Assembly (NCBI GenBank): GCA_016463765.1
Contig: JAEMQS010000020.1
Coordinates: 1 to 64,000, forward strand
DNA length: 64,000 nt
Source: Solirubrobacteraceae bacterium
GTDB lineage: Bacteria > Actinomycetota > Thermoleophilia > Solirubrobacterales > Solirubrobacteraceae
Direction: 5' to 3'
The position numbers and the translations under genes are program-made. The notes under the pieces are model-generated. The model was given only the letters and a program-made list of their open reading frames with translations, was not told the DNA's origin and ran no database searches. This document shows, piece after piece, positions 4,576 through 60,711 of this stretch; the stretch's first letter is position 1, and every line of letters begins with the position of its first letter.

Positions 4576-6162
4576 TCACGGAACATCGGTAGGCCTACCC
4601 ATCTTTCCCTCCCCGCCGATGAGCTCGTGCTCGTGCGCGAACAGCGCGAGGCCGGCGCGGCTGGACACGCCGATCTTCGCGTAGATGTTCTGGACGTGAT
4701 GCTCGGCGGTCCGTCGTGAGACGACAAGCCGCTCGGCGATCTCGGGGTTCGAGCAACCCGCGGCGACGAGCCGCGCGACCTCGACCTCACGCTCGGACAG
4801 GCCGCCCGGACGCAGGCTGGGCCGCCGGCCGCGCGGCTGGGCGCCGGCGGCGTCGAGCACCGCGGTCACCGCGTCGCCGTCAAGCTTCCCGGCCCGCGCG
4901 TCGCGCCGCAGTTCGTCGGCCGCCTGCTCGGCGCTGAGCGCGGCGCGGTGCGGCCGGTTCTGGGTCATCGCGTGGAACGCGTCGGCCGCCGCGAGGACGC
5001 GCGCGGCCGGAGGCAGGTCGTGGCCGGAACACCCCCGGAAGTAGCCCGAGCCGTCGAGGCGCTCGTGGTGCATCCCGGCGACGCGCGCCACCGGGGCGAG
5101 CGCCTGGGACGTGGCCAGGATGCGCTCGGAGTAGTAGGAGTGCATCCGGGCCTGCTCCCACTCGGCGGCGGTGAGCGGCCCGGGCTTCTCCCAGATCACG
5201 TTGGTGACCGCCACGCGCCCGAGGTCGCCGAGGAGGGCCGACAGCCGCAGGCGGCCCGTCGCCTGCGCGTCGAGGCGCAGGTTCCCCGCGGCGCGTTCGG
5301 CGAGGTGGGCGACGCCCGCCGAGTGGCCGTGCGTCCACGGGGTCTTGAGGTCGGCCAGATCGCCGAAGGCCTCGGCCACCGACCCGAGATCGGCGGGATC
5401 GATCTCGATCGCCGGTCCGGGCTCGGCGTCGAGCATCTGCTCGCGTGGATCACCGGTGCGGGTCCGTGTGAGCAGCTCGTCGGCGTCCGCGATCAGGGTG
5501 GCGACCACCTCGGGGTCGAGCAGGACGCCGGCGCGCCGGCGCAGGCCGGTGACGACGGCGTCGGTCCCGCCGATCGCGTCCAGGCGCACGGCGTCGGCGG
5601 CCGCACGGGCCACGCGTGCGGCCGGTGCGATCTCCTCGCCTGCGAGGCCGTCGGGCGGTCCCTCGCCGTTCCACCACTCCACGCACTCCTTCAGCGCCCG
5701 CTCGACCCCGGGGCCGAGCCCGACGCGCCGGCCGGTCGCGCTCGCCACCTCACAGCTGCCGACGTCGAAGTCGTGCCCGAAGCGCCGCCCTTCAGGGGTG
5801 GCCATGAAGCGCAGGATGCGAGCGCGCTCGGCCGGGCTCTTGTCCTCGAGGACCATCGGCAGGGCGACACCCGCGACCTCCTCGGGGTCGGCGACGTTCA
5901 CGCCGGCGATCGCCCGCAGGACGCGTTGCTCGTCGCCGAAGGCCTGCGCGGTCTCGTGCGAGAGCGCGCTGCACCCGACATGCATGAGCAGCGCCGTGTA
6001 GTAGGCGTCCGCGACGTCGGGCTCGGCGAAACCCCGGCGGCGGGCCAGCCCGGCCGCGAGGATGCTGGAGCGCATCGCCTCCTCCGGTGGCAGCCCGAAC
6101 CCGAGATCGCAGGCGATCGACAGGCCTCCGAGGAGGTCCGCGAGGCGAAGCCCGGCGCTCAT
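4576..6162 (-). CDS. HD-GYP-like domain protein with C-terminal LuxR HTH, degenerate HD motif
   Basis: A 528-residue probable cytoplasmic signal-output protein. The N-terminal half (about 1-270) is helical and resembles a duplicated HD-type fold (an LLMHVGC segment near residue 60). Residues about 285-420 match HD-GYP: HSAGVAHL, then HH at 365-366 and DGSGY at 370-374. The HD dyad that binds metal is replaced: the segment reads LLGDLGR (G312-D313) where HDxGK is expected, so phosphodiesterase activity is doubtful. Residues about 455-515 form a LuxR-type HTH (LSEREVEVARL ... VSRRTAEHHVQNIYAKI). GGGAG lies 9 nt before ATG 6162. Divergent from the small protein gene at 6227. Confidence 0.85.
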   Translation of the reverse strand: MSAGLRLADLLGGLSIACDLGFGLPPEEAMRSSILAAGLARRRGFAEPDVADAYYTALLMHVGCSALSHETAQAFGDEQRVLRAIAGVNVADPEEVAGVALPMVLEDKSPAERARILRFMATPEGRRFGHDFDVGSCEVASATGRRVGLGPGVERALKECVEWWNGEGPPDGLAGEEIAPAARVARAAADAVRLDAIGGTDAVVTGLRRRAGVLLDPEVVATLIADADELLTRTRTGDPREQMLDAEPGPAIEIDPADLGSVAEAFGDLADLKTPWTHGHSAGVAHLAERAAGNLRLDAQATGRLRLSALLGDLGRVAVTNVIWEKPGPLTAAEWEQARMHSYYSERILATSQALAPVARVAGMHHERLDGSGYFRGCSGHDLPPAARVLAAADAFHAMTQNRPHRAALSAEQAADELRRDARAGKLDGDAVTAVLDAAGAQPRGRRPSLRPGGLSEREVEVARLVAAGCSNPEIAERLVVSRRTAEHHVQNIYAKIGVSSRAGLALFAHEHELIGGEGKMGRPTDVP

Positions 6163-6190: not shown

Positions 6191-6226
6191 GGGGGCGAAC
6201 TTTCCGGGCTGCGGCCTAGAAGGGGC
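6191..6226 (+). promoter_or_regulatory. Conserved promoter block, copy 1
   Basis: The run GGGGGCGAACTT (6191-6202), a 12-nt spacer, then CCTAGAAG (6215-6222), ending at the ATG at 6227. The same arrangement with identical spacing precedes the gene at 60400. The two 39-nt blocks including the ATG align without gaps and agree at 29 positions. It looks like a -35/-10 pair for an alternative (possibly ECF) sigma factor; that reading is inference. Confidence 0.6.
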
Positions 6227-6559
6227 ATGACCGACATCGATGCCCCGCACGCCCTCGACGTCCTGACCGCCGCGCTGGTCAGCTGGACCTCGGCCTCCAC
6301 GCAGATCGTCCATCACATGGCGACCGCGCCGACCGCGCCATCGCACAGCGAGATCACGGCGATCCTGACGAAGCTCGTCCGCGACACGCTCGAGCCGTTG
6401 AACGACCGCTATGCGCAGGAGGACGTCCACACCGGCGCGCGCATGGCCGCGGACGCGGTCGACACGCTCATGGAGGAGATCCTGCTGATGGACCACGACG
6501 CCGAGCTCGAGCCGCGCAACCGGGCCGAGCGGCGGGCGCGGCGGCGGGGGCATGGGTGA
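6227..6559 (+). CDS. Small helical protein of unknown function
   Basis: Not recognised. 110 residues with no signal peptide or membrane segment. Sequence is helical, acidic in the middle (EEILLMDHDAELEP) with a basic tail (RNRAERRARRRGHG). It may be a distant paralogue of the 103-residue protein at 60400: both have an N-terminal helix of 20-25 residues, a proline-containing turn, then an L..+R..L+P / A.......DA..L type helix pair. The start at 6227 is supported by an AAGGGG ribosome site and by the conserved upstream block. Transcribed divergently from the HD/LuxR gene with 64 bp between. Confidence 0.75.
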   Translation: MTDIDAPHALDVLTAALVSWTSASTQIVHHMATAPTAPSHSEITAILTKLVRDTLEPLNDRYAQEDVHTGARMAADAVDTLMEEILLMDHDAELEPRNRAERRARRRGHG

Positions 6560-6843: not shown

Positions 6844-7047
6844 CTAGATGACCTGAACGTTCTCAGCGTTCGGGCCCTTGGGGCCCTGGGCGGCGTCGTA
6901 CGACACCTTCGCGCCCTCGGCGAGCGTCTTGAAGCCGCTGCCGCCGATCGCGGTGTGGTGCACGAACAGGTCCTTGCCCTGGTCGTCCGGCGTGATGAAG
7001 CCGAAGCCCTTGTCGTCGCTGAACCACTTGACGGTTCCTGTTGCCAT
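6844..7047 (-). CDS. Cold-shock protein (CspA family)
   Basis: A 67-residue single cold-shock domain that binds single-stranded nucleic acid and unfolds RNA. RNP1 (KGFGFI, about 13-18) and RNP2 (DLFVHH, about 26-31) are intact, and the length is the family norm. GGAGGG lies 10 nt before ATG 7047. About 200 bp upstream is non-coding and holds a stem-loop at 7133-7153 and a palindrome at 7204-7223, consistent with the long leaders typical of csp genes. Confidence 0.95.
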
Positions 7048-13918: not shown

Positions 13919-14299
13919 ATGCCCGACTGGACGAAGAAGAACTTCGACGACCTGCGCGACGTCAGCCCCGACCACGTCGACATCCAGTGGCGGTTCGCCC
14001 GCGACGCCCTCGGCTCCCCCGAGCTGGGGATCAGCCGCTTCACGTACGAGCCCGGCGCCCGGATGCCGTGGGGGCACCGGCACCGCGAGCAGGAGGAGGC
14101 GTACGTCGTGGCGTCCGGGTCGGGGCGCGCGAAGCTCGACGACGAGATCATCGAGCTGAGACCGTGGGACGTTCTGCGCGTCGCTCCGGGCGTGACCCGC
14201 TCGTTCGAGGCCGGCCCGGAGGGGATGGACCTCATCTGCATCGGCGGGCGCAAGCCGAAGGGCGGCGACGCGGAGCGGTTCGAGGACTTCTGGCCCTGA
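13919..14299 (+). CDS. Cupin-domain protein
   Basis: A 126-residue single-domain cupin. Metal-binding motif 1 is GHRHREQEEAYVV (G..H.H....E, about 54-66) and motif 2 is PWDVLRVAPGVTRSF, where the usual His is not evident, so metal binding may be incomplete. Function is not deducible; such proteins range from isomerases to small-molecule sensors. Convergent with the CoA-binding protein gene. Confidence 0.82.
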   Translation: MPDWTKKNFDDLRDVSPDHVDIQWRFARDALGSPELGISRFTYEPGARMPWGHRHREQEEAYVVASGSGRAKLDDEIIELRPWDVLRVAPGVTRSFEAGPEGMDLICIGGRKPKGGDAERFEDFWP

Positions 14300-59175: not shown

Positions 59176-60315
59176 TCAGCGCGGGTCGAGGGTGTCGGCC
59201 AGGGCGCTGAACGCCGCCTCGGCCGACTCGCCGTCGGTGTTCGTCAGGACGGCGAGGGTGAGCTTCGCGCGCCGGTCGGTGAACACCATGCTCTGGTACC
59301 CGCCGTAGTTGCCGTCGTGGCCCTGCCACGTGCGGCCCGCCTCGGTGAAGGCGTACGTGCCCAGGCCGTAGCGGTCGGTGTCGCTCTGCGGGGTGGGGCG
59401 CAGCATCTGGGCGAGCATGGCGGGGGAGATCAGCCGGCCGCGGTTCAGGCCGTCCCCGAACCGGGCGGCCTCCCGCGCGGTGGTGACGACGCCGCCGTCG
59501 GTCCATGCCGGCCCGATGATGTCGGTGGGGACGCCGGTGGCTCCGGCCCAGTGGTCGTTGGCGCGGTCGTCGTACCACTCGTAGCTGCGGGCCATCTTCC
59601 GGGCGAGGCCGGGGCGCGTGGCATAGGTCGTCTCCCGCAGGCCCAGAGGCGCGGCGATCGCGCGCTGCAGTTCGGTGTCGGCCGTGCCGCCGCTCGCGCG
59701 CTCGAGGACCTCGCCGAGCAGCAGGTAGTTCGAGTTCGAGTACTCGTACTTCGTGCCGGGCGTGAACTTCGGGGCCTGCTGGCGGGCGAGGATCTCGGCG
59801 CGGTTCCAGGGACGGTTCGGGTTGAAGGCGCCGCTGCCGATGGTCAGTTCGGAGACCAGGGGCTCTTCGGTCTCGACATCCGGGTAGCCGGCGGTGTGGT
59901 CGAGCAGCATCCGCACCGTGACGCGGTCCGCGCCGGGGATGGTGGGCGCCCAGCGCGCGAGCGGTTCGTCGAGGCCGACCCTGCCCTCGTCGACGAGCTT
60001 GAGGACGATCGCGGCGGTGTACGTCTTCGAGGCCGACGCCAGGGAGAAGCGGGTGGACGGCCTGGCGGCGACTGCGCGGCGGGTGGTGGGGCGACCCGTC
60101 CGCGGATGGACCCCGTCCGGGTCGACGGCGCGGCCGACGGCGCCCGACCAGGCGACCTTGCCGCTGCGCACGACCGCGGCGGACACGGCGGTGATGCCCT
60201 CCTCGTCGCGGACGTCGACCAGCGCCTCGCGCAGTTCGGCCTTCGGAACGGTGGCCGCCGACGCGCCGGCGGGAGCGGTGAGGGCGAGGACGGCGGTCAG
60301 CACCGGGGTCAGCAT
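59176..60315 (-). CDS. Secreted beta-lactamase-fold serine hydrolase (class C/DD-peptidase-like)
   Basis: 379 residues. Signal peptide about 1-21 (LTAVLALTAPAGASA). Active-site SxxK is S94-A-S-K97, second motif YSN in KYEYSNSNYLLLGE (Tyr-x-Asn), third motif HDG in WQGHDGNYGG. Belongs to the esterase / D-aminopeptidase / class C family; an insert of about 13 residues (RAVDPDGVHPRTGRPTTRRA) follows strand 2. Substrate unknown. Divergent from the small gene at 60400. Confidence 0.9.
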   Translation of the reverse strand: MLTPVLTAVLALTAPAGASAATVPKAELREALVDVRDEEGITAVSAAVVRSGKVAWSGAVGRAVDPDGVHPRTGRPTTRRAVAARPSTRFSLASASKTYTAAIVLKLVDEGRVGLDEPLARWAPTIPGADRVTVRMLLDHTAGYPDVETEEPLVSELTIGSGAFNPNRPWNRAEILARQQAPKFTPGTKYEYSNSNYLLLGEVLERASGGTADTELQRAIAAPLGLRETTYATRPGLARKMARSYEWYDDRANDHWAGATGVPTDIIGPAWTDGGVVTTAREAARFGDGLNRGRLISPAMLAQMLRPTPQSDTDRYGLGTYAFTEAGRTWQGHDGNYGGYQSMVFTDRRAKLTLAVLTNTDGESAEAAFSALADTLDPR

Positions 60316-60363: not shown

Positions 60364-60399
60364 GGGGGCGAACTTCTGCGGCCCGGACCTAGAAGAGTC
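60364..60399 (+). promoter_or_regulatory. Conserved promoter block, copy 2
   Basis: GGGGGCGAACTT (60364-60375), 12-nt spacer, CCTAGAAG (60388-60395), ending at ATG 60400. Same element order and exact spacing as at 6191-6226. Confidence 0.6.
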
Positions 60400-60711
60400 A
60401 TGCGAACCCCACAGCCCCACCCGCTCGCCGACGACCGCGACGAGGTCCGCGAGTTCGTCGAGACCGTCCTGCGGACCGGCTTCATGCTCACCGACCTCCT
60501 CGGCAACATCCTCGACGCGCTCCCTGACGACGCGTTTCCCGGGGAGAGCCCGGCCGAGGTCCTCGTCGACATGCTTGCCGGCTCGATCCGCCCGGTGGCC
60601 GACGCGGCCGGTCCGCACGCGGTGCTCGACGCGACCGCGCTGCTCGGCGCGATGGCCGACCGGACGCTCATCGACCTGCGCGCCGCCGCCGAGCTCGCCC
60701 GGCGGCGGTGA
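60400..60711 (+). CDS. Small helical protein of unknown function, possible paralogue of the 6227 gene
   Basis: 103 residues, soluble, acidic in the first two thirds (DDRDEVREFVETVL, LPDDAFPGESPAEVL) with a basic end (AAAELARRR). Predicted all-helical. Weak but colinear similarity to the 110-residue protein at 6227, plus the conserved promoter block, suggest one small family. No known domain. Divergent from the serine hydrolase (84 bp between starts) and convergent with the SDR gene. Confidence 0.7.
   Translation: MRTPQPHPLADDRDEVREFVETVLRTGFMLTDLLGNILDALPDDAFPGESPAEVLVDMLAGSIRPVADAAGPHAVLDATALLGAMADRTLIDLRAAAELARRR

Follow-up and report, generated by a model that had tools for sequence, protein, structure and literature searches.

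The present text concerns a stretch of 64,000 nucleotides from a Solirubrobacteraceae bacterium (positions 1 to 64,000 of contig JAEMQS010000020.1, assembly GCA_016463765.1), here called the window, and a short block of DNA that stands in it before the genes of two small helical proteins. This block is a recurrent promoter of the whole order Solirubrobacterales, not an oddity of two genes. We consider it likely that blocks of this kind are leaderless promoters, read by a sigma factor of the extracytoplasmic function (ECF) type that is conserved in the order, is tethered to the membrane, activates its own gene and, in some lineages, has been split by phage-like elements. A promoter code, the sigma factor that likely reads it and a list of its targets are thereby proposed, all from sequence, for a large and poorly studied order.

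Both copies of the block in the window lie on the forward strand. The first extends, with its ATG, from 6191 to 6229, and would be a leaderless promoter with a -35-type element, GGGGGCGA, at 6191 to 6198 (the seed of a set of 93 sites) and a -10-type element, CCTA, at 6215 to 6218, inside CCTAGAAG (6215 to 6222). The second extends from 60364 to 60402, also with its ATG, and has the same two elements, as seen in the logo of the 93 sites, at 60364 to 60371 and 60388 to 60391. The original prediction, made on the window before this analysis, spoke of a gap-free block of 39 nucleotides shared by the genes that begin at 6227 and 60400; the block is indeed there, with 29 of the 39 positions identical in an ungapped comparison. 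Counting both strands, the window contains ten GGGGGCGA octamers, only two of which are followed by CCTA at the right distance and an ATG, and the pattern GGGGGCGA-N16-CCTA-N8-ATG, with up to two mismatches, finds these two blocks and nothing else. Dinucleotide shuffles of the window yielded a mean of 0.07 such matches and never reached two.

Further copies of the block, set at a constant distance from a start codon, occur in the genome and across the order. In the genome to which the window belongs (G000, the other G numbers designating related genomes and L numbers loci), GGGGGCGA-N15-18-CTW-N4-14-ATG has 15 matches, against one for the control, the same pattern reversed. A narrower pattern, tallied over 78 genomes of the Solirubrobacterales, gives 145 matches against 10 reversed; for the remaining 171 genomes of the class the figures are 51 and 38, two of the 51 sharing one sequence that was taken for a transfer-messenger RNA (tmRNA). 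The list of regulon members was built from such pattern searches. Before orthologues of the two small proteins in other genera and families, GGGGGCGA and CTW are found again at about 36 nucleotides from the start codon, with diverged sequence on either side.

Taking the A of ATG as +1, GGGGGCGA spans -36 to -29, and 66 of the 93 sites have 36 or 37 nucleotides from the start of the block to the start codon. In their logo, a weaker RNTY comes right after the octamer and CCTA occupies about -12 to -9; as the set was seeded on GGGGGCGA, variation within the octamer is underestimated. It is this core, GGGGGCGA, 16 or 17 nucleotides and CCTA, that is strongly conserved, whereas AACTT and GAAG, also proposed as elements of the block, are conserved only in part. 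The layout fits a -35/-10 promoter, the transcript of which would start at the ATG itself. We also considered, and rejected as a general feature of the block, an inverted repeat CCCTA..AGGG across the -10 element and the start codon, present at 23 of 88 sites against 13.6 in shuffles (largest value 21). It is striking at Tad genes, and three CpaF genes (L091, L101, L109) display a near-perfect version, CCATGCCCT..AGGGCATGG.

A profile of all sigma genes from six genomes failed to single out a candidate reader of the block; what did so was a genome (G016) where an ECF sigma gene comes immediately after the block. In the bacterium studied here the gene lies outside the window (G000:C202:14227-15639, with a GTG start at 14227), and its block, at C202:14163, stands 64 nucleotides before the start, with CCTC as -10 and a longer leader. 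Homologues are present in 50 of 61 genomes of the order. A block was found upstream of the sigma gene at 33 of the 77 loci of a named collection, against 0.7% of control windows, and likewise in many genomes of our own G-numbered set, which overlaps that collection in part. Among the 110 sigma genes of six genomes, a block precedes two, both belonging to this ECF family, and none of the others. In many genomes (L337, L344, L353, L356, L360 and others) the sigma block is itself preceded by an element resembling TTTGCGGG / CGCAAATTGCG, possibly the site of a second regulator. Metagenome records titled Bifidobacterium breve (L388, L391, L398, L402, L457) carry the sigma gene and group with the Solirubrobacterales, so that they are apparently mislabelled.

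The longer leader of the sigma gene is of direct relevance to the idea that the block is not a promoter at all but a mobile or RNA-level element, a motif of 5' leaders. A fixed distance to the start codons of unrelated genes is what such a motif would display; two short boxes separated by 16-17 nucleotides are not in its favour, and a block that can stand 64 nucleotides from a start codon is not tied to translation. We hold this idea to be highly improbable.

The product of the gene contains Sigma70_r2 (PF04542, E=8e-7) and Sigma70_r4_2 (PF08281, E=3e-6), both above cut-off, and resembles SigE in the PDB over residues 43-192. Its C-terminal part comprises zf-HC2, a ZAS-like zinc finger (E=3e-8), a single hydrophobic helix (hydrophobicity 1.94 over 19 residues) and a tail rich in proline and alanine; in most relatives the last residues of this tail are GEFGP or differ little from it. 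Because of this zinc finger, single membrane helix and exported proline-rich tail, the factor is probably kept at the membrane in an inactive form and, by analogy with the ECF52 group, may be freed by proteolysis. It would then read GGGGGCGA as -35 and CCTA as -10, across a spacer of 16-17 nucleotides, as the promoter of leaderless genes, acting through the same block on its own gene in a self-amplifying manner, and on the Tad pilus cluster, DNA-processing genes and the small helical proteins. To judge from their tails, the long frames that, in the sequences examined, end in EFGP or EFGF appear to be either this sigma factor or a small membrane protein (VRWGN), itself a block target and divergent from ssb in three genomes. 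The end that this membrane protein shares with the sigma tail (L010, L069, L084, L115, L120, L141) could possibly denote a common extracytoplasmic partner or a protease signal.

Does the block go with the sigma factor from genome to genome? Genomes with a clear sigma orthologue have a mean of 6.1 blocks and the others 1.5 (Mann-Whitney p=5e-5, three split or truncated sigma genes being counted as present), a p value which is not independent of phylogeny, since the genomes are related. This dependence is one of several points that weigh against the sigma factor as reader of the block. Two genomes, G037 and G017, have blocks and no sigma orthologue was found in them (they are fragmented, and 93% and 89% complete, respectively); family f4 has sigma homologues, of about 40% identity, but is devoid of canonical blocks; over half of the 77 loci of the named collection have none within 320 nucleotides of the sigma gene; and the autopromoters of the sigma genes often have CCTC or CTT in place of CCTA. 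Several of the genomes searched are incomplete. It may be asked whether another alternative sigma factor, for example one that by eye resembles Spo0H/SigH, reads the block, the ECF sigma gene being just one of its targets. The promoter anatomy would be the same, and reciprocal matches to such a factor exist in five of six genomes (G006, G017, G025, G027, G037). Yet G025 and G027, where the regulon is absent, conserve this factor well, and no block was seen before its own gene, so that we regard this alternative as unlikely.

The original prediction had imagined a regulon of small proteins under an alternative sigma factor or other specific activator. The second half of this proposal is borne out by the recurrence at fixed distance, the conservation at orthologues and the block before the ECF sigma gene, while the first half has to be abandoned because most targets are genes of ordinary size. 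The commonest gene downstream of blocks encodes AbiEi_4 with nuclease-like domains of the DUF559/MTES_1575 type. REP-associated tyrosine transposases, the CpaF/TadA ATPase of the Tad pilus, RadA, RecQ, a protein with an O6-methylguanine-methyltransferase-like DNA-binding domain, a PD-(D/E)XK endonuclease and DUF192 are found as well. The block also stands, across more than 12 genera, upstream of a Tad-linked response regulator of the OmpR type. Several genomes have, after the gene of this regulator, others that by eye look like kinase and CpaB genes.

This regulator might be thought to bind the block, activating its own operon and others together with the housekeeping sigma factor, the more so as its gene is missing or diverged in groups devoid of blocks (f4, g24). 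Regulators of the OmpR type normally bind tandem repeats, however, and the logo displays no conservation upstream of GGGGGCGA; the -10 element of the block differs from TANNNT, and the position of the elements suits region 4 of a sigma factor. We therefore find it improbable that the regulator, rather than the ECF sigma factor, is what recognizes the block.

The sigma gene is split by phage-like elements in at least two relatives. The interruption measures 8,983 bp in a genome made of a single contig (G010, L359:1701-10662) and 18,506 bp in G002 (L360), and in both it falls within the codons TKV of the recognition helix of region 4.2, GWxxTKVNR, with the gene of a large serine recombinase (Resolvase, Recombinase, Zn-ribbon) at the left junction. 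The first element has a phage-type capsid gene; the second encodes a tyrosine integrase and a very long protein that includes a lysozyme-like domain. When the flanks are joined at the shared core, the open frame and the consensus helix come back (GWSYTKVNRCLTEGR, GWTRTKVNRCLTEGR). G019 has yet another serine recombinase at a third left junction, again in these codons, and no right junction was found on the contig. The recombinases are 26-38% identical over their aligned parts, too little for any of the elements to be a recent copy of another. An intact sigma gene in G005 is accompanied by a partial copy, 89.5% identical in the shared part, that ends as a right junction would, and in G004 a second copy is present in decayed form. 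Canonical blocks persist in the interrupted genomes (10 in G010, 7 in G002, 6 in G019), which is consistent with insertion being either recent or reversible: the sigma factor would stay split unless the element excises. A search for sigma halves on viral contigs returned one weak match only. The sigma genes of family f3 (G026, G032, G038, G162), examined as further split genes, were rejected, being naturally short and intact.

We may now return to the genes of the window. Small protein 1 (110 residues, 6227 to 6559, forward strand) has block-bearing orthologues in G001, G002, G007 and G054; for small protein 2 (103 residues, 60400 to 60711, forward strand) a recognizable block accompanies the orthologues of G001, G002, G163, G009, G162, G035, G057 and G153. 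They had been described as helical and of unknown family, and each structure model does consist of three long helices, whose order is alike in both (pLDDT, predicted local distance difference test, of 80 and 88, respectively), with nothing above cut-off in a Pfam search. Unrelated families they probably are not: a profile comparison aligns 76 columns (E=0.00065, with a probability of only 28%) and, short of proof, suggests distant relatives of each other. No close relatives of protein 1 were found in the named genome collection, nor a match of the fold of protein 2 in the PDB, and a likely further member of the group follows a block in G013 (L130). As predicted, both genes diverge from larger ones, on the reverse strand and with starts at 6162 and 60315. 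The neighbour of the first (4576 to 6162) reads as having a LuxR-type helix-turn-helix at its C-terminus and an HD-like middle, and that of the second (59176 to 60315) as serine-hydrolase-like; both are the same in G001. A gene resembling those of cold-shock proteins lies just 3' of small gene 1, on the minus strand (6844 to 7047).

What might such a regulon be for? Micrococcus luteus needs the biogenesis of Flp/Tad pili in order to be transformed (PMC4322843), and competence genes are repeatedly disrupted by mobile elements, which has been read as a defence against curing by transformation (PMC4774983). The resemblance lies in Tad/Flp pilus genes (CpaF and the operons of the Tad-linked regulator) under the block promoter, in DNA-processing genes among its targets and in a regulator hit by mobile elements. 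Together with this literature, the Tad targets, RadA, RecQ and the nuclease-like targets suggest a regulon for DNA uptake. The difference is that comEA and comEC have no block upstream in the genomes examined, which goes against the simple version of this idea. We can offer it as a tentative reading only, of about the same standing as other functions of Tad, such as attachment and surface life. The full scenario, where the tethered ECF sigma factor governs DNA uptake by Tad over the whole order and unrelated phage-like elements, by inserting at the codons of its recognition helix, silence the regulon or switch it reversibly, is rather unlikely as a whole. If the role in uptake were true, it would open a route into the control of competence, a subject poorly known in deep-branching Actinomycetota.

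The closest known architecture is that of ECF52, which, with ECF48 and ECF53 of Actinobacteria, joins an ECF sigma domain to a zinc finger, a membrane helix and an extracytoplasmic extension; in ECF52 the extension is proline-rich, proteolytic activation has been proposed and, for SCO4117, autoregulation also (PMC5826349, PMC8999054). The present factor has the same zinc finger, membrane helix and proline-rich extension. It differs in that no Pfam family of carbohydrate-binding module was found in the sigma factor of our genome, and in a tail that ends in a repeated EFGP motif. Its promoter, GGGGGCGA-N16/17-CCTA, is not the CSGYN-17-SRHA proposed for SCO4117 (PMC5826349, PMC8999054), and its target genes are others.

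As for the split genes, they recall sigK and the skin element of Bacillus and Clostridioides (PMC5025042) and the comK prophages of Listeria: there, as here, a phage-like element endowed with a large serine recombinase splits the gene of a regulator into two halves that are both still open and, once joined, are in frame again. Here, in contrast, the gene is that of an ECF sigma factor, it is hit inside the recognition helix, and excision would be a step deduced from the sequence. These genes look like an instance of a master regulator taken over by mobile elements, this time outside the Firmicutes.
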